This document shows, in pieces, positions 3,225 to 32,240 of a stretch of 64,000 bases of DNA; within the stretch, counting starts at the first letter, position 1, and each line of letters starts with the position of its first letter. Origin of the DNA: Phycicoccus sp. Soil802 (GTDB lineage: Bacteria > Actinomycetota > Actinomycetes > Actinomycetales > Dermatophilaceae); NCBI RefSeq assembly GCF_001429605.1, contig NZ_LMSS01000002.1, forward strand, positions 62,001 to 126,000, in the 5' to 3' direction. Under the pieces are notes generated by a model. That model did no database searches, had not been told where the DNA came from, and saw nothing but the letters and a program-made list of their open reading frames with translations. The position numbers and the translations under genes were made by a program.

Positions 3225-5330
3225 TCAGTCCTCCGGGACGTTCGACCGCAGCTCGTCCAGCCACACGCGCCCGGTGACGTCGGACGGCATACGCCAGTCG
3301 CCGCGAGGTGAGAGTGACCCTCCCGCAACGACTTTCGGGCCGTTGGGCAGCGCGGAGCGCTTGAACTGGTTGCTGAAGAAGCGCTGCAGGAAGACTTCCA
3401 TCCACCGCCGGATGGTGGCGAGGTCGTATGCCGTGCGACGGCTCTCGGGGTAGCCCGCCGGCCAGTCGCCCACCTCGACGTCGGACCACGCGTGGAGGGC
3501 GAGGAAGGCGATCTTGCTGGGTCGGTAGCCACGTCGCAGCACGTGGTAGAGCGTGAAGTCCTGCAGCGCGTAGGGGCCGACGGAGTCCTCGGTGGACTGG
3601 ATCTTCTCACCCGCCCTGGCCGGCACCAGCTCGGGGCTGATCTCCTGGTCGAGGATCTCGGTGAGGGTGCCGTTGACCGCACCCTCGAACTGCGCGCTGC
3701 TGACGACCCAGCGGATCAGGTGCTGCATCAACGTCTTCGGGACGCCGCTGTTGACGCCGTAGTGCGACATCTGGTCACCCACGCCGTAGGTGCACCACCC
3801 GAGCGCGAGCTCCGAGAGGTCGCCGGTGCCGAGCACGATGCCGCCGCGCTGGTTGGCCGCCCGGAAGAGGTAGTCGGTGCGCAGCCCGGCCTGGACGTTC
3901 TCGAAGGTGACGTCGTAGACCTCCTCGCCACGGCCGAACGGGTGCCCGAGGTCGGTGAGCAGCTGGGTCGCCGCGGGCCGGATGTCGAGCTCCTCCCAGG
4001 TGATCCCGAGCGACTCCATGAGGTGGACGGCGTTGCTCTTGGTCCCCTCGGTGGTGGCGAACCCCGGCATGGTGAAGCCGACGATGTCGGTGCGCGGGCG
4101 GCCGAGCCGGTCCATCGCCTTGGCCGCGACGATCAGCGCGTGCGTCGAGTCGAGCCCACCACTCACCCCGATGACGACCTTGGGCTGCCAGGTGTCGGTG
4201 GCGATGGCGCGCAGCCGCTGCTCGAGACCGGAGACCTGGATGTTGTAGGCCTCGTAGCAGTCCAGTGCGAGCCGGGCCTCGTCGTCGGGCACGAACGGGA
4301 ACCGGTCGACCTTGCGCCGCAACCCGATGTCGCCGGTCGGCGGCTGGAGCGTGAACCCGAGGGTGCGGAAGTCCGCGCCGTCGCTGGCGTCGATGCGCTC
4401 GGCCCGACGGTTGTCATCGAAGGACCCCTGCCGGATCCGCTCCTGGCGCAGCCGGTCGAGGTCGACGTCGACGACCGTCGACCGCGGCCCGTCCGGGAAC
4501 CGCTCGCTCTCGCCGAGCAGGTCGCCGAGCTCGTAGACCATCGTCATGCCGTCCCACGACAGGTCGGTGGTCGACTCACCCGCTGACGCGGCGGCATACA
4601 GGTAGGCGGCGTTGCACCGCGCGCTCGCGGAACGCGCGAGCAGGTGGCGGTCCTCGGCGCGACCGACGGTGATCGGTGAGGCCGACAGGTTGAGCAGCAC
4701 CGTGGCGCCCGCGAGCGCGGCCTTCGCGCTCGGCGGCACGGGGACCCACATGTCCTCGCAGATCTCGACGTGGACGGCCAGCCCCGGGACGTCGTCGGCG
4801 TCGAAGACCAGGTCGGGGCCGAACGGCAGGTCGCCGTCCTCGTCGGCGCCCGGCCAGTGCGGCGCGTGGAACCAGTCGGTGCGGCTGTCGTCGCCGGCCG
4901 CGAAGTGCCGCTTCTCGTAGAACTCGCGGTAGTTGGGGAGGTTGGACTTCGGGACGACGCCGAGCACCTCGCCACGGTGGATCACGACGGCGCAGTTGAA
5001 CAGCCGGTTGCCGTGCCGGAGCGGGGCACCCACGACCACGACGGGCAGGAGTGACTTCGTGGCCGCGGCGACGGTCAGGACGGCCCGGTCCACCTCGTCG
5101 AGCAGCACGTCCTGGAGCAGCAGGTCGTCGATGGCGTAGCCCGACAGGCTCAGCTCGGGGAACAACGCCACGGCCACGCCGTCCTCGTGCAGCCCCCGCA
5201 CCTGCTCGACGATCGTCTCGGCGTTGCGCGCGGGATCGCCGGCGGCCACCGGGACCGTGCACGCGGCGACGCGGGCGAAGCCGTGGCGGTAGGCCGACGC
5301 GAAGTTCGAGGGTGCAGCCCCGGTGTCCAT
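3225..5330 (-). CDS. nadE: Glutamine-dependent NAD+ synthetase
   Basis: Cytosolic last enzyme of NAD synthesis: it amidates nicotinic acid adenine dinucleotide with ammonia from glutamine, using ATP. The 701-residue protein, close to the length of the mycobacterial enzyme, has an N-terminal nitrilase-type amidotransferase domain with the Glu-Lys-Cys triad visible (LFPELSLSGYAIDDL, VVPKSNLPNYREFYEKRHF, VEICEDMWVP with Cys near 190). A C-terminal synthetase domain follows with the PP-loop VIGVSGGLDSTHALIV. ATG 5330 (MDTGAAPSNF) is chosen because an upstream extension is low complexity. It stands alone and is divergent from the small gene at 5380. Confidence 0.95.
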   Translation of the reverse strand: MDTGAAPSNFASAYRHGFARVAACTVPVAAGDPARNAETIVEQVRGLHEDGVAVALFPELSLSGYAIDDLLLQDVLLDEVDRAVLTVAAATKSLLPVVVVGAPLRHGNRLFNCAVVIHRGEVLGVVPKSNLPNYREFYEKRHFAAGDDSRTDWFHAPHWPGADEDGDLPFGPDLVFDADDVPGLAVHVEICEDMWVPVPPSAKAALAGATVLLNLSASPITVGRAEDRHLLARSASARCNAAYLYAAASAGESTTDLSWDGMTMVYELGDLLGESERFPDGPRSTVVDVDLDRLRQERIRQGSFDDNRRAERIDASDGADFRTLGFTLQPPTGDIGLRRKVDRFPFVPDDEARLALDCYEAYNIQVSGLEQRLRAIATDTWQPKVVIGVSGGLDSTHALIVAAKAMDRLGRPRTDIVGFTMPGFATTEGTKSNAVHLMESLGITWEELDIRPAATQLLTDLGHPFGRGEEVYDVTFENVQAGLRTDYLFRAANQRGGIVLGTGDLSELALGWCTYGVGDQMSHYGVNSGVPKTLMQHLIRWVVSSAQFEGAVNGTLTEILDQEISPELVPARAGEKIQSTEDSVGPYALQDFTLYHVLRRGYRPSKIAFLALHAWSDVEVGDWPAGYPESRRTAYDLATIRRWMEVFLQRFFSNQFKRSALPNGPKVVAGGSLSPRGDWRMPSDVTGRVWLDELRSNVPED

Positions 5331-5379
5331 GGTTCCGAGTCTGTCAGAGAAGGCGCGACCGCCAGGACGGATCGCTACG

Positions 5380-5697
5380 GTGCGGGCGCTCGACATCTAC
5401 TCGGACAAGGACCCGGCGGACGTGACCGCGGACGCGATCGGCGACCTCCTGCCGTTCGAGGTCCCGTACTGGGCCGGCGAGCACGCCGAGGTCGACGACT
5501 ACCCGCATCCGTTCCACCCGTTGGAGCTGGGCGAGGCCGCGATGGCGTGGATGTTCGGCAGCTCTGGCGAGGGCGCCCCCGGCGATGCGGTCCAGCGCGA
5601 GCTCGGCGAGCTGCTCGACCCGTTCGAGGTGCCGATGCACGGGTTCCGGATCGGCGAGCCGGCACGGAAGGGACTGCTCAGCCGCCTCTTCAGCTGA
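5380..5697 (+). CDS. Small hypothetical protein (105 aa)
   Basis: Starts at a GTG (VRALDIYSDKDPADVTADAIG). Codon third positions are GC-rich as in real genes here. The protein is acidic, with FEVPYWAGEHAEVDDYPHPFHPLELGE and a Gly/Trp-containing middle, ending in ARKGLLSRLFS. I do not recognise the family. Its stop codon is part of the first palindromic repeat at 5696-5721, which could act as its terminator. Divergent from nadE with only about 50 bp between the starts, so the two share an upstream region. Confidence 0.55.
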   Translation: MRALDIYSDKDPADVTADAIGDLLPFEVPYWAGEHAEVDDYPHPFHPLELGEAAMAWMFGSSGEGAPGDAVQRELGELLDPFEVPMHGFRIGEPARKGLLSRLFS

Positions 5698-5770
5698 GAA
5701 CCGGCCAATTGCCCGGTTCTCGGCGCGCAGAGTCCCCCTGTGCGGCCCACAACCGGGCAATTGGCCGGTT
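5696..5770. repeat. Pair of near-perfect palindromes, copy 1 of a duplicated element
   Basis: Two palindromes, 5696-5721 and 5751-5770, each with the core CGG-S-CAATTG-S-CCG. The outer arms are perfect (GAGAACCGG/CCGGTTCTC in the first, AACCGG/CCGGTT in the second) and one symmetric base pair beside CAATTG is mismatched. Their 20-bp cores are also exact reverse complements of each other, so the pair can form one long hairpin with a 32-nt loop. They follow the 5380 gene directly and precede the CNBD gene; a terminator or operator role is inference. Confidence 0.8.
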
Positions 5771-5865
5771 TCCTCGGGCCAGCGGCCTGCGTTCGGTGGT
5801 GGTTGACGGGATCACGCGCGGGGTTCATCGTGTGGCGAGGGGGTCACCGGGTTCAGGGAGGCGTC

Positions 5866-6258
5866 ATGGATGCTGAGGAGCTTGCCTCGATACCGCTTCT
5901 GGCCGACCTGACCCCGGAGCAGCGGGCGATGGTCGCGGAGAAGCTGAACGAGCGCGAGGTCGACGTCGGCACCGTGCTCGCGCGCGAGGGCGACTACGCA
6001 TACAGCCTGTTCTTCGTCGTCGACGGCCTGGCCGCCGCGGCCCACGAGACCAGGCTGCTGACCACGCTGCGCCCGGGCGACTGGTTCGGGGAGATCGGGG
6101 TGCTGACCCACAGCACCCGGTCGGCGAACGTCGTCGCCCTCAGCAGGATGCGGCTGCTGACCCTGATGGCCTGGGACTTCTCCGACCTGATGCACGAGCT
6201 CCCGGCGCTCGGGACCCGGATCCGCGAGCGGGCGATGGAACGGCTCGAGCGCGACTGA
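5866..6258 (+). CDS. Cyclic-nucleotide-binding-domain protein without a DNA-binding domain
   Basis: 130 residues from ATG 5866, preceded by CAGGGAGGCG (strong ribosome-binding site). The whole protein is one Crp-type cNMP-binding beta-barrel: IPLLADLTPEQRAMVAEKL, GTVLAREGDYAYSLFFVVDG, and the phosphate-binding-cassette region LRPGDWFGEIGVL followed by RSANVVALSRMRLLTL. There is no helix-turn-helix after the hinge helix, so it cannot be a classic Crp regulator. The cassette has GEIGVLTHSTRSANV, with Glu and Arg in the positions that hold cAMP in Crp, so nucleotide binding is plausible. A receptor subunit acting on a partner is inference. Confidence 0.8.
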   Translation: MDAEELASIPLLADLTPEQRAMVAEKLNEREVDVGTVLAREGDYAYSLFFVVDGLAAAAHETRLLTTLRPGDWFGEIGVLTHSTRSANVVALSRMRLLTLMAWDFSDLMHELPALGTRIRERAMERLERD

Positions 6259-23907: not shown

Positions 23908-23999
23908 GCCAGCAACCTTTGCTAGCACGGATTCCTCGGAGGTGGACAGGTTGCAACCTGTCCACCTCCGAGTTTTGTTTGCTAGCAAAGCTTGCTGGC
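23908..23999. terminator. Nested 92-bp palindrome with intrinsic terminator core
   Basis: The inner part, 23935-23972, is a perfect 38-bp palindrome (arms begin CTCGGAGGTGGACAGG) followed by TTTT, a textbook Rho-independent terminator for the plus-strand gene ending 23890. It is enclosed by outer 20-bp inverted arms (23908-23927 and 23980-23999, core TTTGCTAGCA/TGCTAGCAAA) with only one mismatch, ending just before the mau-like operon. Such two-level symmetry is unusual for a simple terminator. Confidence 0.85.
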
Positions 24000-24018: not shown

Positions 24019-24558
24019 ATGTGGGACCTGGCAGCCGGACCGTTCCTCGCCGCGGCGGGGCTGCTCGTCGTGGCCGGGGGCCCCAAGGTCGTCGACCCGC
24101 TGCCCCTGGTCCGCGCGCTGCGCGGCGCAGGGGTGCCGGTCCACCGCCAGCTCGTGCGCGCGTTCGCCGTCATCGAGGTCGCCCTGGGTGCCTGGGCGCT
24201 GGTCGCACCGAGTCGGTATGCCGCGGGGCTGGTCGCCGCGGCATACCTCGTCTTCACTGCCTTCGTGGCCCGGGTGCTGGCGCGCGGCGGCGTCCTCGGG
24301 TCGTGCGGCTGCTTCGGCAAGCCTGACACCCCCGCCACCCGCACCCACCTCGTGCTCACCGCGCTGGCTGCGCTCACCGCGCTGCTGGTGGCCGTCGACC
24401 CGCCCGCCGCGGCGTGGGCCGGCGTCGACGGGACCACGGTCACCACGGCCGGCTTCGCGGTCGTCATCGGGTTCCTCGCCTGGCAGGTGCTGGCCGTCCT
24501 GCCGACGACCTCGCCCGCGGCCATCCGCACCACGACCGCTCCGACCCCGAAGGGCTGA
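24019..24558 (+). CDS. MauE/DoxX-type redox-associated membrane protein
   Basis: 179 residues with four membrane segments (residues 5-22, 46-62, 68-88 and about 150-167). The motif GSCGCFG (Cys96, Cys98) followed by a His (THLVLT) is the signature of MauE-type proteins, membrane partners of the thiol oxidoreductase MauD in disulfide formation of methylamine dehydrogenase. ATG 24019 is chosen; TACGGT at 24005-24010 is placed as a -10 for a possibly leaderless transcript. First gene of the run that ends with the cysteine-rich protein at 26697. A 12-bp inverted octamer pair lies within it. Confidence 0.85.
   Translation: MWDLAAGPFLAAAGLLVVAGGPKVVDPLPLVRALRGAGVPVHRQLVRAFAVIEVALGAWALVAPSRYAAGLVAAAYLVFTAFVARVLARGGVLGSCGCFGKPDTPATRTHLVLTALAALTALLVAVDPPAAAWAGVDGTTVTTAGFAVVIGFLAWQVLAVLPTTSPAAIRTTTAPTPKG
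24215..24247. repeat. Inverted pair of the CGGCATAC octamer inside the MauE-like gene
   Basis: GGTATGCCGCGG (24215-24226), a 9-nt loop, CCGCGGCATACC (24236-24247): perfect 12-bp arms inside a coding region. In frame it encodes RYAAGLVAAAYL, using TAT and GCA codons that are otherwise rare here. Confidence 0.88.
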
Positions 24559-24566
24559 CCCACAGA

Positions 24567-25451
24567 ATGCTTGCCGTCGTGATCGCCGAGGGCGTCGCCA
24601 TCGTGCTCCTCGGCGTGCTCGTCCTCGGACTGCTCCGCAGCCACGCCCTCATCCTCAAGGCGCTGCACGAGCTGGGCGCGGGTCTCGAGCTCGAGAAGGA
24701 GGCCGGCACCGGGGTGAGCCTGGCGACCACCGGTGGCAAGCCCGGCCCCGTGCCGGTCGAGCTGGAGACCGGCGTGGTGCAGGCCACCCGCAAGGACTCC
24801 ACCACGGCCCACGACATCGTCGGCACCGACCTCGACCGCCGCGAGCAGCAGGTCACCGTCACGACCCCCGGCACCCGCACGCTGCTGGCCTTCCTGACCA
24901 GCGGCTGCTCGGTGTGCCAGACCTTCTGGGACGAGTTCCAGGGCTCGGTCGACGTGCCGGGCGAGGGGTCGCTGCACATCATCGCCAAGGGCTCCGCCGA
25001 GGAGTCGATCTCGAGCCTGCGGGCGCTGGCCGGCGACCGCGACGTGGTGCAGTCGTCCGCGGCCTGGGTGGACTACGACATCCCCGGCTCGCCCTACTTC
25101 GTCTACGTCGAGGACGGCGTGGTCACCGGCGAGGGCTCGGCGACCACCTGGGCCCAGGTGCGTGGCCTGATGGCGCAGGGCGTCGCCGACAGCGAGGAGG
25201 CCCGCACCGCCGCGGGCCGCTCCGGCCCCGGGCTGCTCGTGGGAGACGCGATGGGAGCCGGCGGGCGCGACAACCTGTCGCGGATCGACGCCGAGCTCCT
25301 GGCCTCGGGCGTCCGCCCGGGCGACCCCAGCCTCTACCGCGCCCCGGACGAGGACTCCCTCGCGGCGCCGGGCCACCACGACCACGACCACGACCACGGG
25401 CAGGGGCACGACCACCAGACCCACGACCACACGCACCAGCACGACCACTGA
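24567..25451 (+). CDS. MauD-like thioredoxin-fold protein with membrane anchor and His-rich tail
   Basis: 294 residues from ATG 24567, 8 bp after the MauE-like gene. A membrane segment (AVVIAEGVAIVLLGVLVLGLL, residues 3-23) is followed by a thioredoxin-like domain outside the cytosol with FLTSGCSVCQTFW (Cys114, Cys117). CxVC plus this layout matches MauD, which forms or reshuffles disulfides in the methylamine dehydrogenase light chain. The last 26 residues alternate His and Asp (HHDHDHDHGQGHDH), a likely metal-binding tail not typical of MauD. Likely client: the cysteine-rich product of 26697 (inference). Confidence 0.82.
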   Translation: MLAVVIAEGVAIVLLGVLVLGLLRSHALILKALHELGAGLELEKEAGTGVSLATTGGKPGPVPVELETGVVQATRKDSTTAHDIVGTDLDRREQQVTVTTPGTRTLLAFLTSGCSVCQTFWDEFQGSVDVPGEGSLHIIAKGSAEESISSLRALAGDRDVVQSSAAWVDYDIPGSPYFVYVEDGVVTGEGSATTWAQVRGLMAQGVADSEEARTAAGRSGPGLLVGDAMGAGGRDNLSRIDAELLASGVRPGDPSLYRAPDEDSLAAPGHHDHDHDHGQGHDHQTHDHTHQHDH

Positions 25452-25452
25452 C

Positions 25453-25533
25453 ATGTCGGTGACCGCGCTCGCCCTCGCCCTGGGTCTCCCGATGGCCGCG
25501 GTCGCGGCCGTCCGGGCGACCTGGTCCCCTTGA
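25453..25533 (+). CDS. Possible 26-residue peptide between the MauD-like and membrane genes
   Basis: An ATG lies 1 bp after the MauD-like stop and opens 26 codons (MSVTALALALGLPMAAVAAV, then RATWSP) that end 9 bp before the next start. The peptide is hydrophobic, like a signal or short membrane helix. There is no clear ribosome-binding site, but reinitiation after the upstream stop is possible. It may be a real microprotein or just open spacer. Confidence 0.3.
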   Translation: MSVTALALALGLPMAAVAAVRATWSP

Positions 25534-25542
25534 GGTGAGTCG

Positions 25543-26142
25543 ATGCTCTCGAGCATCAGCCCGCTCGGCGAGCGGGCCCGACACTCCCGGTGGTGGCTGA
25601 CCACCACCGCCTACCTCCTCGGCTCACTGGTCGGGGGACTCACAGTCGGTGGGCTGGCCGCCACGCTCGGCGGGCTCCTGCCCGACGGGGTGCGCACGTC
25701 GCGCTGGACCCTCGTCGCGGTCGCCGCCCTGCTGCTGGTCGGGCTGGTCCTCGACCTGCGCAACCAGCGCTCGGTGCCGTCGTGGCGCCGCCAGGTCGAC
25801 GAGCGCTGGCTGACCCGCTACCGCGGCTGGGTCTACGGCGTCGGCTTCGGGGCGCAGCTCGGGTTCGGCCTGGTCACCATCATCACCAGCACGACGACGT
25901 ATGCCGCGGTGCTGCTGGCCGCGCTCACCGGCCACCTCGGCGCGGGGCTGGCGATCGGCGCGACCTTCGGGGTGGTCCGGGCGCTGCCGTCGCTGCTGAT
26001 GGCCCGGGTGGTCGACAGGGGCGACCTGCACCGGGTCTTCATCCGCGTCGAAAGATGGGCAAATCCGGCACGAGCCCTCGCTAAGGTGGCTCTGGGAGGA
26101 GCGGTTGTGATCGTGCTGGCCGCCGCCGCAGTTGGAAGTTGA
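25543..26142 (+). CDS. Polytopic membrane protein of the mau-like operon
   Basis: 199 residues with about five membrane segments (TTAYLLGSLVGGLTVGGLAATL, TLVAVAALLLVGLVL, GFGAQLGFGLVTIITSTTTYAAVLLAAL, LGAGLAIGATFGVVRALPSLL, ALAKVALGGAVVIVLAAAAV). The small-residue-rich helices recall CcdA/DsbD-type electron carriers, but I see no cysteines, so it cannot pass electrons by the usual thiol route. Start ATG 25543 has GAGGTGAG upstream. By position it should serve the exported cysteine-rich protein made from the last gene; that is inference. Confidence 0.65.
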   Translation: MLSSISPLGERARHSRWWLTTTAYLLGSLVGGLTVGGLAATLGGLLPDGVRTSRWTLVAVAALLLVGLVLDLRNQRSVPSWRRQVDERWLTRYRGWVYGVGFGAQLGFGLVTIITSTTTYAAVLLAALTGHLGAGLAIGATFGVVRALPSLLMARVVDRGDLHRVFIRVERWANPARALAKVALGGAVVIVLAAAAVGS

Positions 26143-26178
26143 TCGCAGTGGAGCTGACCCAGGGGAGTTGAGAGAGCT

Positions 26179-26700
26179 GTGGCTGACCACTACGGGATGC
26201 GGGCTGACGCACCCCCGGGCTGGCAGGTGGCCGTGACCCGCAGGCCCGGGATCGAGCCGGGCACCCTTACCGCTCCGGGCGCCCGCAGCGGCGCCGACGA
26301 GAGTGACGTGACCCGTCCGGTGCTGCACGCCTGCACCCGGCCGATGCCGGCCGACCGCGGCGACTTCGGCAGCAACGTCGTCGACCTGCTGGGGCCCGAC
26401 GACGTCTTCGTGGCCCTCGTCGACTACGGCACCGAGGTCGCCGACCAGGGGCTGTTCGAGCGGCAGGGGATGCCGGGGCTCGCGCCGTCGCAGTTCGGGC
26501 CGAACCGGTTGCAGCGACCGCTCCCGGGGCTGAGCGCCTCGCAGCACTTCTTCAGCTCCGGCGGCCGGGCGTTCTGCCTGTTCACCGTCGTGGGCAGCCA
26601 CGCGCGCCGGATGGCCTCCGTGCCCCGGGCCGCGGCCCTCGTCTCGACGATCAGGATCACCGACCGGGCCACCCTGGCCCGCCAGGGAGGACGACCGTGA
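26179..26700 (+). CDS. Hypothetical protein of the mau-like operon (173 aa)
   Basis: GTG start at 26179 following GGGGAGTTGAGAG. The sequence opens VADHYGMRADAPPGWQVAVTRR and includes DDVFVALVDYGTEVADQGLF and HFFSSGGRAFCLFTVVG, so it looks like a compact alpha/beta domain without signal or membrane segment. I do not recognise the family. The stop overlaps the start of the 26697 gene (GTGA), so the two proteins are made in coupled fashion. A cytosolic chaperone or quality-control factor for the Tat substrate would fit, with no direct proof. Confidence 0.65.
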   Translation: MADHYGMRADAPPGWQVAVTRRPGIEPGTLTAPGARSGADESDVTRPVLHACTRPMPADRGDFGSNVVDLLGPDDVFVALVDYGTEVADQGLFERQGMPGLAPSQFGPNRLQRPLPGLSASQHFFSSGGRAFCLFTVVGSHARRMASVPRAAALVSTIRITDRATLARQGGRP

Positions 26701-28253
26701 GCACCCTCGACGACCTCAACGCCGGGCCGGGGGGCATGGCGGGCTTCGTGTCCGCGCTGACCCGCCGGATGCGCCCGGTGTCGCGCCGCGACGTGCTGGT
26801 CGGCGCCACGGTGGCCGCCACGGCGCTGGCCACCAAACCCAAGGAGTACGCGCTCACTCCGGTCGCGGCATACGCCACCATCTGCGGACCCGGCAACACG
26901 GCGTCGAGCGGCTGGACGGTGTTCTGCTCCACGGTGAACAAGGGCGTCAACACCTGTCCGCCGGGCAGCTTCGCCGCGGGCTGGTGGAAGGCCGCCGACT
27001 CGTCCTGGTGCGGAGGCGGCTACCGCTACATCGTCGACTGCAACGCGAGCTGCTCCAAGTGCACCACCGGGTGCAGCGACGGCATGTGCGACTCCCGGTG
27101 CTGGAGCTGCTCGTGCGGCACCGGGTCGTCGGCGACCTGCGACCAGCGCCGGGTCTGCTGCAACGCCTTCCGCTACGGCCAGTGCAACACCCACGTGAAG
27201 TGCTCCGGTGGGGTGCATTGCCGGGTCGTCAGCTGCGTGCCGCCGTACAAGTTCGCGAACTGCACGACGGCGTCGCTGTCCGACAACCGCACCAGCGAGC
27301 ACAGCGCCCCGAGCCTGCCGCGCTGGGAGGCGATCACCCAGAAGTACCACGCGATGGGTGAGCAGGCGTCGTACCTCAAGGCCTCCAAGGGCCCGGTCAG
27401 CTATGTCGGCGACGGCATCGGCCGGTACGTGCTGTTCCAGGGCGGGGTCATCTACTACACGTCGAAGTACGGCGCGGTCGCCGTCACCGAGTTCATCCGC
27501 AAGATCTACTCGACCCACGGCGGACCACGCGGCGCCCGGCTCGGCTACGCCACCGCCGACATCGCGTACACCGCCGACAAGGGCTGGCTGCAGACCTTCG
27601 AGCGCGGGGCCATCACCGACTCGGCGAGCACCACGACGCAGGTCGTCTGGGGCACCCGCTGGACCATCTGGAAGGCCAACGGACGGGAGGGCGGGATCCT
27701 CGGCTACCCGACGACCGCTCCCACAGTCGGCGCCCAGGACGGGACGCTCCAGCTCTTCCAGAAGGGCGCCATCGTCGACTCCCCGTCCACCACCACCCAG
27801 GTGGTCGCCGGGTCGAGCTACTGGAAGTGGAGCCTGCTGTCGCGCGACCGCGGCCCGCTCGGCTACCCCACCGGTCCGCAGCAGACCCTGCCCGACGGCT
27901 GGATCCAGCTGTTCCAGAACGGCGCGATCTGCGGTGGTCCGGTCACGACCGAAGCCGTCCCCGCCCCGATGTACGCCCCGTGGGTCGACGCCGGGCGCGA
28001 GTCCGGCGTGCTGGGCTACCCGACCGGGCCGAGCCACACCGAACCCCGCGGGCTGGCGCAGTTCTTCCAGCGGGGTGAGCTCTGGGCGCTCGGCGCGGGG
28101 TCGCCGCCGCGTCGGGTCCACGGCGCGGTGCTGACGGAGTGGAAGTCCCAAGGGGGGGCCACCGGCAGCTACGGCTACCCGGTCACCGACACCACCCAGG
28201 CCGGCGGCGGCCGGCTCACCTGCACCTTCGAGGGCGGCACCATCACGGCCTGA
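26697..28253 (+). CDS. Tat-exported cysteine-rich methylamine-dehydrogenase light-chain-like domain fused to LGFP repeats
   Basis: 518 residues. N-terminus has a twin-arginine signal (RPVSRRDVLVGATVAATALA, Arg30-Arg31). Residues 60-190 hold 20 cysteines and resemble the methylamine dehydrogenase light chain: NTCPPGSFAAGWWKAAD then GGGYRYIVDCNASC parallels the CPPG...W...G..Y....DCC segment of MauA. Residues about 210-518 are five LGFP-type repeats (LGYATAD, LGYPTTA, two LGYPTGP, YGYPVTD), modules that bind the cell surface or wall. The second TTQ tryptophan of MauA has no clear equivalent, so amine dehydrogenase activity is doubtful. The MauE/MauD-like genes upstream probably supply its disulfides. 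Confidence 0.8.
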   Translation: MSTLDDLNAGPGGMAGFVSALTRRMRPVSRRDVLVGATVAATALATKPKEYALTPVAAYATICGPGNTASSGWTVFCSTVNKGVNTCPPGSFAAGWWKAADSSWCGGGYRYIVDCNASCSKCTTGCSDGMCDSRCWSCSCGTGSSATCDQRRVCCNAFRYGQCNTHVKCSGGVHCRVVSCVPPYKFANCTTASLSDNRTSEHSAPSLPRWEAITQKYHAMGEQASYLKASKGPVSYVGDGIGRYVLFQGGVIYYTSKYGAVAVTEFIRKIYSTHGGPRGARLGYATADIAYTADKGWLQTFERGAITDSASTTTQVVWGTRWTIWKANGREGGILGYPTTAPTVGAQDGTLQLFQKGAIVDSPSTTTQVVAGSSYWKWSLLSRDRGPLGYPTGPQQTLPDGWIQLFQNGAICGGPVTTEAVPAPMYAPWVDAGRESGVLGYPTGPSHTEPRGLAQFFQRGELWALGAGSPPRRVHGAVLTEWKSQGGATGSYGYPVTDTTQAGGGRLTCTFEGGTITA

Positions 28254-28328: not shown

Positions 28329-29789
28329 TTACCGTCGCCGCACCTCGCGGGTGCCGTCCGGCAGCCGCCGGGTCACCAGCGTCGAGTCGAGCCGTTCCAG
28401 CAGCGGGACCGCGACGCGTCGTGACGTGCCCATCGCCCGGGTGGCGGCGCCGACGGTGAACGGTTGGTCGAGCTCGCGCACGACCGCCTCGGCCCGGTCC
28501 ACCGCGTCGCCGGTCAGCACGACGCCGCCGAGCCGGGTGACCTCGCCCCGGTCGGCCGCGGCAGCCAGGTCGGCGGCCGTGACCGCCCAGCCGTCGAGCT
28601 GCTCGCGCGACGGCGCCTGGAGGGGGTGCGCACCGAGCCAGGCCACCAGCGCCCGCACGCCCGGCGGGGTCTCGTCCCCCGGTTTCACGTCTCCTGGGTA
28701 TGCCGCGGGCTCGCTGCGGTCCCGCCGCCCGCCGCGGCGGGTGGGTGGGTCCACGACCCGCACCCGCGCCCCCGCGAGCACCTCGTGCCGGCCGGGGTCG
28801 CGCAGCACGGCCCGGTCGCCCACGACCAGCGGGAGCGGGTGGGCCAGACGCAGCCTGACCCGGCCGTCCGGCAGCGCCTGGGTGCGCACCGGCACTGCCG
28901 CGGTCCCGACGTGCAGGGTGAGCTCGCGGGGCAGCCGAGGGGTGGCGACGGCTGCCGGCACCAAGGTCACCGGCTCGAGGGGGACCAGGTCCACGTCGAG
29001 CACCGACGGGTGGGCCGGCCAGTGGACGTCCGTGAGCGCGGTGCCCCGGCCGACGCGGCCCACTTCGACGCCCCGCAGGTTGACCGCCACCCGAGCCGGA
29101 CCCACCACGACGGGCACGTCCTCGCCGCAGGTCTGGAGCCCTCGCACCCCCACCGCCTCGCCGTCCAGCAGCAGCTCGTCGCCCACCGCGATCCGGCCCT
29201 GCGGCAGGGTGCCGGTCGCGACCGTACCCGCGCCCCGGATGCTGAACGAGCGGTCCACCCAGAGCCGCACCGGATCATCCGGGGCCCTCGGCGCCGCGGC
29301 CGCCGCGAGCCGGCCCAGGGCAGCGCGCAGCTCGGGGAGACCGGCTCCCGTCGCCCCCGAAACCAGCACGCTCTCCGCGACCTCGACGCCGAGGGCTGCC
29401 AGCCGGTCGAGGGACTGCTCGCGGGCCGGGACCCCGTCGGCCAGGTCGCACCGGGTCACCACGAGCAGCAGGTGCTCGATGCCCAGCGCGGCGACGGCCC
29501 GGGCGTGCTCGCGGGACTGCGCCGACCAACCGTCATCCGCCGCCACCACGAACAGCACCGCGTCCACCGGACCCAGCCCGGCCAGCATGTTGCCGGTGAA
29601 GTGCTCGTGACCCGGCACGTCGACCAGGCTCACCCGCTGCCCGTCGATGTCGGTCCACGCGTAGCCGAGGTCGATGGTCAGGCCACGACGCCGCTCCTCG
29701 GCCCACCGGTCGGGCTCCTGCCCCGTGAGCAGGCGAACCAAGGTCGACTTGCCGTGGTCGACGTGCCCCGCCGTCGCGACGACAGCCAT
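28329..29789 (-). CDS. selB: Selenocysteine-specific translation elongation factor SelB
   Basis: 486 residues. GTPase domain with VATAGHVDHGKSTLVRLLTG (P-loop), GLTIDLGYAW, DVPGHEHFTGNML and TRCD, followed by EF-Tu-like barrels (SIRGAGTVATGTLPQGRI) and a shortened C-terminal winged-helix part (ending AVPLLERLDSTLVTRRLPDG). SelB carries Sec-tRNA to the ribosome at UGA codons marked by a SECIS hairpin. It is shorter than the E. coli protein (about 614 residues), so some winged-helix units are missing, which is common in actinobacteria. Follows selA by 6 bp. Confidence 0.95.
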   Translation of the reverse strand: MAVVATAGHVDHGKSTLVRLLTGQEPDRWAEERRRGLTIDLGYAWTDIDGQRVSLVDVPGHEHFTGNMLAGLGPVDAVLFVVAADDGWSAQSREHARAVAALGIEHLLLVVTRCDLADGVPAREQSLDRLAALGVEVAESVLVSGATGAGLPELRAALGRLAAAAAPRAPDDPVRLWVDRSFSIRGAGTVATGTLPQGRIAVGDELLLDGEAVGVRGLQTCGEDVPVVVGPARVAVNLRGVEVGRVGRGTALTDVHWPAHPSVLDVDLVPLEPVTLVPAAVATPRLPRELTLHVGTAAVPVRTQALPDGRVRLRLAHPLPLVVGDRAVLRDPGRHEVLAGARVRVVDPPTRRGGRRDRSEPAAYPGDVKPGDETPPGVRALVAWLGAHPLQAPSREQLDGWAVTAADLAAAADRGEVTRLGGVVLTGDAVDRAEAVVRELDQPFTVGAATRAMGTSRRVAVPLLERLDSTLVTRRLPDGTREVRRR

Positions 29790-29795
29790 CGTGAC

Positions 29796-31106
29796 CTACT
29801 CCCCGGCGTCGCGAATCGCCTGTGCCACCACCGCATCCGCGGCCGCGGGGATACACCGCAGGTCGACCAGGCAGCGGCCCCGCTCGACGCGGGCGAGGAC
29901 CGGCCGGGCGAGCAGCCGCAACGACGCGGCATACGACTCGGGGAGGGCGACCGCCCAGCCGGGCAGCGCCTGACCCGGTGCGCCGCCACCACCCACGACG
30001 CCGTCGGCGGGGACGACCGAGGCAAGTCCGTCGGGCAGGCTGGCGGCGACCGCCTCACACCGGGCGCGGAGCACCGCAGGGTCGGCCTCGAGGGCGTCCC
30101 AGACCGGGGCGCGCGGTCCGCGCAGCGTGGCCTCGAGGGCGGCCAGAGTGGTCTTGTCGGCCCGGACCGCCCGGGCCAGCGGGTGCCGACGCAGGCACGT
30201 GACGGTGTCGGAGCGGCCGAGCACCAGCCCCGCCTGGGGACCGCCGAGCAGCTTGTCGCCGCTGCAGGTCACCACTGCGGCCCCGTCAGCGAGCGAGCGT
30301 GCGGCATCGGGCTCGTCGGGCAGCAGCGGGTGCGGGCGGAGCAGGCCGCTGCCGATGTCGTGCACGACGGGCGGTCCGAGCGCCACCAGCTCAGCGACGG
30401 GGACCGCCGAGGTGAAGCCCTCCACGCGGAAGTTGCTTGGGTGCACCTTGAGGAGACAGCCGGTGGCGGGGCCGATGGCCGACTCGTAGTCGGCGAGGGT
30501 GGTGCGGTTCGTGGTGCCGACCTCACGCAGCCGCGCACCGGCGCTCGCGATCAGGTCGGGCAGCCGGAACCCGTCACCGATCTCGACCATCTCGCCACGG
30601 CTGACGACAACCTCGCGGCCGGTGGCCAGAGCGGTCGTCGCGAGCACCAGCGCGGCGGCGCCGTTGTTGACGACCAGCGCGGCCTCGGCCTCGGGGAGCA
30701 CCTCGAGGAGCGCAGCCGTCGTGCCCCGGCCCCGGGCCGAGCGCTGGCCGGTGCCGAGGTCGAGCTCGACGTCGACGGTGCCGGCCGCCGCCGCCATCGC
30801 CTCGACCGCCGCGGCCGACAGGGGTGCCCGGCCGAGGTTGGTGTGGATCACGACGCCGGTGGCGTTGAGCACCGGCGTCAGGGTGGTCGCCCGCTGGGGC
30901 AGCGCGGCCAGCGTCGCGTCGACCACGTCGTCGGGGCCGATCCGGCCGGCCCGCACCTGCTCCTGCGCCAGCTGCACGGCAGCCCGCACGACATCGCGAC
31001 CCAAGCGTGAGATCGCCTGCGCCACAGCGGGTTTGGCGAGCACGGCGTCGGTCCGGGGCACGAGGCGACGCGCGTCGAGCCCACGACCGGGCTGCGGCTG
31101 CGGCAT
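29796..31106 (-). CDS. selA: L-seryl-tRNA(Sec) selenium transferase SelA
   Basis: 436 residues from ATG 31106 (MPQPQPGRGLDARRLVPRTD). A PLP enzyme: it turns Ser-tRNA(Sec) into Sec-tRNA(Sec) with selenophosphate. Signature regions are VLNATGVVIHTNLGRAPLS, VVNNGAAALVLATTALA, SRGEMVEIGDGFRLPDL and the PLP-lysine segment VTCSGDKLLGGPQAGL. Starting the frame further upstream would run through the tRNA-Sec gene, so the ATG at 31106 is taken. It forms an operon with selB and sits 15 bp from tRNA-Sec. Confidence 0.96.
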   Translation of the reverse strand: MPQPQPGRGLDARRLVPRTDAVLAKPAVAQAISRLGRDVVRAAVQLAQEQVRAGRIGPDDVVDATLAALPQRATTLTPVLNATGVVIHTNLGRAPLSAAAVEAMAAAAGTVDVELDLGTGQRSARGRGTTAALLEVLPEAEAALVVNNGAAALVLATTALATGREVVVSRGEMVEIGDGFRLPDLIASAGARLREVGTTNRTTLADYESAIGPATGCLLKVHPSNFRVEGFTSAVPVAELVALGPPVVHDIGSGLLRPHPLLPDEPDAARSLADGAAVVTCSGDKLLGGPQAGLVLGRSDTVTCLRRHPLARAVRADKTTLAALEATLRGPRAPVWDALEADPAVLRARCEAVAASLPDGLASVVPADGVVGGGGAPGQALPGWAVALPESYAASLRLLARPVLARVERGRCLVDLRCIPAAADAVVAQAIRDAGE

Positions 31107-31121: not shown

Positions 31122-31217
31122 TGGCGGAGGCGGACGGGAATCGAACCCGCCCAGCCGAGGTGCTCGGCTGCACCGGTTTTGAAGACCGGGAGGGCCACCA
31201 GGCGCCTGTACGCCTCC
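31122..31217 (-). tRNA. selC: tRNA-Sec (UCA anticodon)
   Basis: 96 nt on the minus strand, including an encoded CCA. The acceptor stem pairs GGAGGCG with CGCCTCC; the anticodon stem-loop reads CCGGTCTTCAAAACCGG with anticodon TCA, which reads UGA; the variable arm is long (GCAGCCGAGCACCTCGGCTG); and the TPsiC loop has GTTCGATTC. The extra-long acceptor-T domain and UCA anticodon are diagnostic. Located between selA and selD, completing the cassette. Confidence 0.97.
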
Positions 31218-31241
31218 GCGAGCGAGGCTAGCGTAGGGACC

Positions 31242-32240
31242 GTGACCGAACAGGGTGTGTCCGTGCGGCTGACGCAGTATGCCGCCGGGGGCGGCTGTGC
31301 CTGCAAGATCCCGCCGGGGGAGCTGGAGGAGGTCGTGCGCGGGCTGGGTGGCCAGGTCGCCGATGACCTGCTGGTCGGGCTCGACGACGGGGACGACGGC
31401 GCCGTGGTGCGGGTCGCCGACGGCACCGCGGTGATCAGCACCGCCGACTTCTTCACCCCGGTCGTCGACGACGCCTACGACTTCGGCCGGATCGTCGCCA
31501 CCAACGCGCTCAGCGACGTCTACGCGATGGGTGGTCGCCCGGTGCTCGCCATCAACCTGGTCGGCTGGCCGCGGTCGGTGCTCCCGCTCGAGCTGTTGCG
31601 CGAGGTGCTGCGCGGTGGGCTCGACGTGGCTGGTCTGGCCGGGTGCCCGGTGGCCGGGGGTCACTCGATCGATGACCCCGAGCCGAAGTACGGCATGGCG
31701 GTGACCGGTGTCGCCGACCCGGATCGCTTGCTGCGCAACGACTCTGCCCTGCCCGGGCTGCCGATCTCGCTGACCAAGCCGATCGGGGTGGGGGTGCTCA
31801 ACAACCGGCACAAGGCCACCGGTGAGGTGTTCGAGCACGCGGTCGCGTCGATGGTGTCACTCAACGACGAGGCGAGCGCTGCGGCCGTGTCGGCCGGGGT
31901 GCGGGCCGCGACCGATGTCACCGGGTTCGGGCTGTTGGGCCATCTGTTCAAGCTGCTGCGCGCCTCGGGGGTCGGGGCGGTGCTGGACTCGGCGGCCGTG
32001 CCGGTGCTGGACGGTGCGTGGGAGTCGCTGCGCGACGGGTACGTCAGCGGTGGCACCCGTCGCAACCTCGACTGGGTCCGGCCGCACCTCGACGTGGCGG
32101 GTGGGTCGGTCGACGAGGAGGTGCTGCTCATGCTCGCCGACGCCCAGACCAGCGGTGGGCTGCTGGTCGTGGGCGAGGTGCCCGGCGCAACGGTCATCGG
32201 CCACACGGTCGCGGGAGCCCCGCGGATCGAGCTCCGGTGA
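31242..32240 (+). CDS. selD: Selenide, water dikinase (selenophosphate synthetase), Cys form
   Basis: 332 residues from GTG 31242, which leaves the tRNA-Sec gene free. It makes selenophosphate from selenide and ATP. The glycine-rich active loop reads GGGCACK, with Cys19 at the catalytic position where some organisms have Sec, then Lys22. ATP and metal motifs include STADFFTPVVDDAYDFGRIVATNALSDVYAMGG, PVAGGHSIDDPEPKYGMAVTG and TDVTGFGLLGHLF. Divergent from the tRNA-Sec/selA/selB side, so the full Sec pathway sits within 4 kb. Confidence 0.96.
   Translation: MTEQGVSVRLTQYAAGGGCACKIPPGELEEVVRGLGGQVADDLLVGLDDGDDGAVVRVADGTAVISTADFFTPVVDDAYDFGRIVATNALSDVYAMGGRPVLAINLVGWPRSVLPLELLREVLRGGLDVAGLAGCPVAGGHSIDDPEPKYGMAVTGVADPDRLLRNDSALPGLPISLTKPIGVGVLNNRHKATGEVFEHAVASMVSLNDEASAAAVSAGVRAATDVTGFGLLGHLFKLLRASGVGAVLDSAAVPVLDGAWESLRDGYVSGGTRRNLDWVRPHLDVAGGSVDEEVLLMLADAQTSGGLLVVGEVPGATVIGHTVAGAPRIELR

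Follow-up and report, generated by a model that had tools for sequence, protein, structure and literature searches.

In Paracoccus, MauE and MauD are essential for methylamine metabolism, and MauE has been proposed to aid disulfide formation in the light chain of methylamine dehydrogenase (MADH), according to PMC7794033. In the present study we analysed a 64,000-nucleotide stretch of the genome of Phycicoccus sp. Soil802 (contig NZ_LMSS01000002.1, positions 62,001 to 126,000; hereafter the window), which carries a cassette of five genes, termed A, B, C', D and E. The first three encode homologues of MauE, MauD and MauF, and E encodes a cysteine-rich protein with a leader for twin-arginine translocation (Tat). 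Comparison of sequences makes it highly probable that the locus specifies a pathway devoted to the oxidative folding of one client protein, in which the MauF-like component C' bears selenocysteine (Sec). The first-pass annotation of this DNA had proposed that the part of the mau system which forms disulfides has been reused for a surface protein that is not a dehydrogenase. This proposal holds up: MauE- and MauD-like genes, and also a MauF-like gene that had gone unnoticed, are linked to a Tat-exported client.

Gene C' (25453..26142, + strand) encodes a protein of 229 residues. It had been described as a cysteine-free polytopic membrane protein of 199 amino acids starting at position 25543, a description that has to be replaced: the true frame opens at 25453 and crosses a UGA codon, and 30 codons together with the redox residue had been missed. 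The hidden Markov model (HMM) of the C family matched Paracoccus MauF with 66.7 bits and the Thermomicrobium homologue with 38.8 bits; in the genome that contains the window, the best-scoring protein other than C itself reached 12.5 bits. Judged by homology across the membrane domain and by the motif WSP-[C/U]-G, C is a MauF homologue. When compared with the DsbD_2 family (PF13386), the window protein scored 22.4 bits, i.e. below the cut-off of 24.9, whereas a relative (locus L077) exceeded it with 26.6 bits.

A gap of about 90 bases lies between B and C in almost every locus and contains a short hydrophobic frame ending in WSP-stop. Read from 25453, the window sequence gives ...VRATWSP-UGA-GESMLSSISPLGER... 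and leads directly into C, and the corresponding segment of Paracoccus MauF is ...LLSTWSPCGYSSISLL... The in-frame UGA (25531..25533, + strand; ...ATWSP-U-GESMLSSI...) aligns with Cys79 of MauF (WSPCG) and is a candidate Sec codon, which would specify Sec27 of C'. A search of 84,980 species genomes with the head domain of E identified 220 relatives, and the best 79 loci, nearly all from Actinomycetota, were examined. The codon at the MauF Cys79 position, compared in 64 loci, was TGA in 55 and TGC or TGT in nine, and in no case TAA or TAG. The exchange of Sec and Cys at one codon is a hallmark of selenoproteins.

Eleven nucleotides after the UGA lies a hairpin (GAUGCU-CUCG-AGCAUC; 25542..25557, + strand) resembling a Sec insertion sequence (SECIS), as judged from pairing and codon choice across the loci. 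The GAUGCU-N4-AGCAUC stem has its six pairs complete in 49 of the 55 loci with UGA; no Cys locus of the nine has all six, and four of them retain five. The serine codon at +7 is AGC in every UGA locus (55/55), compared with 34% of serine codons in the cassettes as background, while the three Cys loci with serine at this position use TCG. The nominal p value of the AGC bias (about 1.7e-26) is inflated by the relatedness of the sequences. Both the hairpin and the codon choice set the UGA form apart from the Cys form, and this difference is specific.

The genes required for Sec synthesis and insertion are located directly downstream of E in the window: selB, the Sec-specific elongation factor (28329..29789, - strand; GTP_EFTU, SelB-wing_3 and Beta-barrel_SelB domains), selA, the Sec synthase (29796..31100, - strand, with an approximate 5' boundary; PF03841, 324 bits), the tRNA-Sec gene selC (31126..31217, - strand; found with ARAGORN, RF01852 80.3 bits) and selD, the selenophosphate synthetase (31179..32240, + strand, as the listed open reading frame, whose true start is probably downstream of the tRNA; AIRS and AIRS_C domains). 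In ten other loci (L077-L080, L085, L094, L097, L103, L114 and L143) sel genes are also close to the cassette. Since RF01852 cross-matches other tRNAs at low score, the bit score and not the presence of a match was used as the criterion. A tRNA-Sec of at least 59.9 bits was detected in 13 of 13 tested UGA genomes but in only one of nine Cys genomes (Nakamurella endophytica; Fisher 2.8e-5), and SelA in 13 of 13 versus two of nine (2.1e-4). Across 297 genomes of the window's order, all 18 that carry E possess a tRNA-Sec of at least 67 bits, and 97 genomes possess one of about 60 bits or more (hypergeometric p 5.6e-10). Two relatives, G235 and G691, carry two high-scoring tRNA-Sec genes each (81.6 and 76.3 bits, and 79.5 and 76.3 bits, respectively). 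A search of the window genome for other selenoproteins among molybdopterin oxidoreductases revealed no in-domain stops, the usual Sec site of formate dehydrogenase lying outside this search.

Because of the UGA/Cys exchange, the hairpin kept at the codon level, the co-occurrence with tRNA-Sec and the adjacent sel genes, C' is very probably a new selenoprotein, MauF-Sec, into which Sec would be inserted in the cell. An open-access literature search on MauF and selenoproteins returned unrelated papers only.

The five genes of the cassette had been noted earlier as closely packed on one strand, and they indeed occupy positions 24019-28253 of the + strand separated by 8, 1 (once C is corrected), 36 and -4 bases. 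Gene A (24019..24558, + strand) had correctly been recognised as encoding a MauE-like membrane protein with the motif GSCGCFG: it matches PF07291 with 50.6 bits (cut-off 27), its family HMM matches Paracoccus MauE with 42.5 bits, and both cysteines of the CxC (C96 and C98) are kept in 78 of 78 homologues. Three more MauE-family matches were found in the window genome (G000:C6:15994-16386, C4:307747-307959 and C7:140686-140952), the best of which, with 101.9 bits, scores above gene A. Gene B (24567..25451, + strand) encodes a membrane-anchored protein of thioredoxin fold with a histidine-rich C-terminus. Its reported likeness to MauD stood as regards the CSVC motif (C114 and C117) and homology (family HMM against Paracoccus MauD, 41.0 bits), but the match to the TIGR02661 equivalog is weak (E 3.5e-4, 20.1 bits), far below the curated cut-off of 188.6. 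The CxxC of B is present in 84 of 86 homologues.

Linkage was counted in 45 actinobacterial loci with sufficient flanking sequence. Next to the E-type gene we found A in 42, B in 44, C in 39 and D in 44 of them, i.e. the Cys-rich gene is usually accompanied by its partners, the opposite of what would have refuted the first-pass proposal. The order is mostly ABCDE (27 loci), and AEBCD, BCDAE and others also occur; linkage is thus maintained through changes in gene order. In the 297 genomes of the order, strong matches to C and to D were each confined to 17 genomes, all of which have E; the eighteenth E genome is represented by a 4.5-kb contig. No conserved neighbours were detected outside the cassette, where the recurrent clusters reflected local synteny and shadow open reading frames, some of them over sel genes. 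Plasmid searches with E gave no match. Just 5' of gene A, at 23930-23985 of the window, a long inverted repeat (GGAGGTGGACAGGTTG/CAACCTGTCCACCTCC) is followed by a T-rich stretch; the arrangement resembles an intrinsic terminator belonging to the gene before A.

The putative client, E (26697..28253, + strand), was confirmed to carry the Tat leader and the 20 cysteines in residues 60-190 noted at first (22 overall), although it contains six LGFP stretches and not five (PF08310, 130.5 bits). The LGFP module (27312..28253, + strand) is related to that of the mycoloyltransferase PS1 (MytA; PDB 6swz, E 7.8e-16), whose repeats form a stalk-like extension and bind cell-wall material (PMC11299179). 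This suggests, by homology, that E is displayed on the cell surface through its LGFP repeats. The idea that the repeats form a beta-propeller like that of the MADH heavy chain was dropped in favour of the stalk-like extension (PMC11299179). The C-terminal modules of the E family are exchangeable: LGFP repeats are found in most members, a ricin-type lectin in L127, L152 and L155, and an FG-GAP-like module in L101, L104 and L112, while L099, L113, L118 and others have no such module. The lectin-bearing gene of L127 (L127:7935-8891) is a second E copy with none of the partner genes close to it, the full cassette of this genome being at L119.

The Cys-rich head of E (26859..27311, + strand; 20 Cys) is predicted to adopt a fold like that of the MADH light chain (model pLDDT 87.2, pTM 0.83). 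The label "light-chain-like" given to it earlier has weak support. In the fold comparison, the 20 PDB entries on the list with Z>=2 are without exception light chains of MADH or aromatic amine dehydrogenase (AADH), but their Z scores are only 2.3-3.0 and Foldseek found no match to the PDB at E<=0.001. Sequence profiles did not bear the label out: none of 67 domain sequences matched the light-chain family PF02975 at E<=10, in 396 genomes of the phylum PF02975 produced sub-threshold matches only, none of them in the E family, and PDB sequence searches with the head gave no useful match. A comparison of the E and light-chain profiles by hhalign reached P 9e-5 with the Tat leader and 0.013 with the mature domains; this link was not used as proof, as 1 to 3 of 100 Cys-preserving shuffles match the score.

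These results leave some room for the view that the head is unrelated to the MADH light chain and represents a convergent disulfide-rich domain taken up by a mau maturation module. The failed PF02975 and PDB sequence searches, fold scores of about 3 and the shuffled controls would all be expected if this were so. Nevertheless, we regard convergence as the less likely origin, given that light chains alone fill the list of fold matches, that the C-x5-C, CPPG and DC motifs are common to both proteins, that their Tat leaders align and that their maturation genes are alike. Kinship of the E head with the light chain is, on the predicted model, probable; it is not stated more firmly because sequence profiles fail to connect the two.

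Irrespective of its origin, the sequence indicates that E is not a tryptophan tryptophylquinone (TTQ) dehydrogenase, because the position equivalent to the second TTQ tryptophan, Trp108, is never Trp. In an alignment by Cys pattern, the residue before C126 is S, T, L, I or M in the 67 sequences. Within the same alignment Trp42 and Trp43 of E lie near TTQ Trp57, and Asp60 near MADH Asp76, and both sites are invariant in the 67 sequences. Several polar residues (R56, Y57, R97 and R122) are invariant too. On these grounds E might be placed among the relatives of the TTQ enzymes, as a redox enzyme whose cofactor derives from tryptophan. We consider this improbable in view of the missing Trp108 equivalent, the lack of a heavy-chain profile match and the lack of a conserved extra gene by the cassette. 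Neither light-chain nor heavy-chain (PF06433) profiles matched in the window genome, which only indicates absence, as control genomes gave no match either. The role of the head is most likely binding or structural.

MauF-like genes with a UGA were also observed in clusters with other clients. Two genomes of the order have distant MauF-like genes without E, with UGA at the corresponding site in three loci; a MauD-like neighbour is present in all three and a MauE-like neighbour in two. In the Kineococcus group, L181 (G134:C49:67500-77000; client 5238-5921, - strand) contains a PF02975 light chain (102 bits) with both TTQ Trp motifs, alongside MauE, MauD and a MauF-like gene broken by UGA (WSP-TGA-GYSL). 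L183 (3471-4777) combines MauE, MauD and a UGA-containing MauF-like gene with a distinct Tat-exported protein (170 amino acids, 10 Cys) that appears, by its sequence, to represent a third client type. In L182 (G246:C20:259000-268000, - strand), with MauD- and MauF-like genes, the in-frame TGA follows GSV, there is no WSP, and a hairpin CUCAGC-GAU-GCUGAG comes next. In Thermomicrobium roseum, light-chain genes are accompanied by MauE, MauD and a MauF-like gene; the last of these contains WSP-TGA-GYSM (TGA at L156:10744), and its annotated start is the Met after the UGA. The uncharacterised cluster on plasmid NC_011961 (L156) of this species, in which four light-chain-like places alternate with several propeller-like proteins and a propeller-MauE fusion, appears TTQ-like. 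In a broader reading, the trio of MauE, MauD and Sec-MauF would serve several Tat clients as a general, selenium-dependent module for folding on export, and in the present branch it would generate a new redox cofactor from protein residues at Trp42-Trp43/Asp60; we give this little credence.

The UGA of C' could in principle be an ordinary stop, separating a membrane micropeptide of 26 amino acids from an independently initiated MauF-like protein. An ATG is present at 25543, just past the UGA, and the micro-ORF is plausible as a single-pass peptide. This interpretation is very unlikely: in nine homologues and in Paracoccus MauF the frame is continuous with Cys at this codon, every one of the 55 stops is TGA, conservation extends to the codons that lie between the UGA and the ATG (G-E-S), the hairpin constraint is limited to UGA loci, and tRNA-Sec and SelA track the UGA form.

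Gene D (26179..26700, + strand), listed earlier as an unknown protein of 173 amino acids, proved to be a real gene with conserved homologues and no known family; a PDB sequence search gave nothing useful. It has no signal peptide, and its model (pLDDT 90.5) resembles PsbP/Mog1/LpqN-like proteins, Tsi3 and Eag chaperones (Z 5-6.6). D is likely to be a dedicated chaperone of E that acts ahead of Tat export. A role in antagonism, with E as the secreted effector and D as the corresponding immunity protein, might be suggested by the Tsi3-like fold of D (Z 6.5) and the exchangeable lectin or cell-wall modules of E. It is highly improbable, since D lacks a signal peptide, Tsi3 is equalled by PsbP/LpqN/Mog1 folds among the matches of D, E shows a high conservation that polymorphic toxins do not have, and PADLOC gave no match.

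In the oxidative-folding pathway that we favour, cytosolic D would hold or proofread E, with its 20 head cysteines, before export by Tat. Outside the membrane B would, by analogy with the mau system, exchange disulfides with E, and A would re-oxidise B through its CxC. C', a putative member of the DsbD superfamily with a single selenol at the MauF Cys position, may pass electrons to or from B; both direction and partners are conjectural. About ten disulfides of E would thus be made or reshuffled, a process that the selenol would speed, and the mature head, with no second TTQ Trp, would be anchored on the cell wall by the LGFP repeats. Several observations weigh against this scheme. Sec27 aside, the window C' has no Cys, so a DsbD-style shuttle of two cysteines is impossible; the SECIS-like stem is nearly invariant and displays no covariation or compensatory changes; a detectable C is absent from 6 of the 45 loci, one of which, L127, has E alone; and the assignment of E as the substrate is deduced from linkage and the mau analogy.

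MauF-Sec is a probable addition to the selenoprotein families, one that standard gene calling misses, as the frame is cut at the UGA. It would tie the formation of disulfides outside the cytoplasm, in one client only, to selenium, and offers a possible reason for the retention of the Sec machinery in some aerobic actinobacteria. It may also provide a genetic handle on the role of MauF in MADH maturation, with Sec, Cys or Ser placed at one codon and the disulfides of one client as the read-out.

Among known selenoproteins, C' is comparable with the DsbA-like and Prx-like thiol oxidoreductases described in PMC5029168, with which it shares Sec at a redox-active Cys position and a UGA followed by a hairpin; MauF is outside the top-20 bacterial families in the table of that paper. 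As regards DsbD/CcdA carriers (PF13386), the C' of L077 passes the family cut-off, whereas that of the window remains below it and has Sec27 as its single redox residue. In candidate clusters for ribosomally synthesised and post-translationally modified peptides in Streptomyces, MauE and MauD are likewise used without other mau genes; unlike in the present locus, the passages of PMC7794033 on these clusters report no large Tat client, MauF or Sec alongside. With the MADH light chain MauA (PF02975), E shares the Tat leader, a small multi-disulfide domain and the CPPG region, but differs in lacking a profile match and the Trp108 equivalent and in having 20 head cysteines and a C-terminal cell-wall module. 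A close parallel is the mauF/mauE/mauD set of Paracoccus denitrificans, as all three homologues are present here (66.7, 42.5 and 41.0 bits, as given above) and are linked to a Tat-exported multi-disulfide protein. In contrast to that system, there is no adjacent mauB or amicyanin gene, Cys79 of MauF is replaced by a predicted Sec, the client is fused to LGFP repeats, and the cassette includes an extra gene, D.

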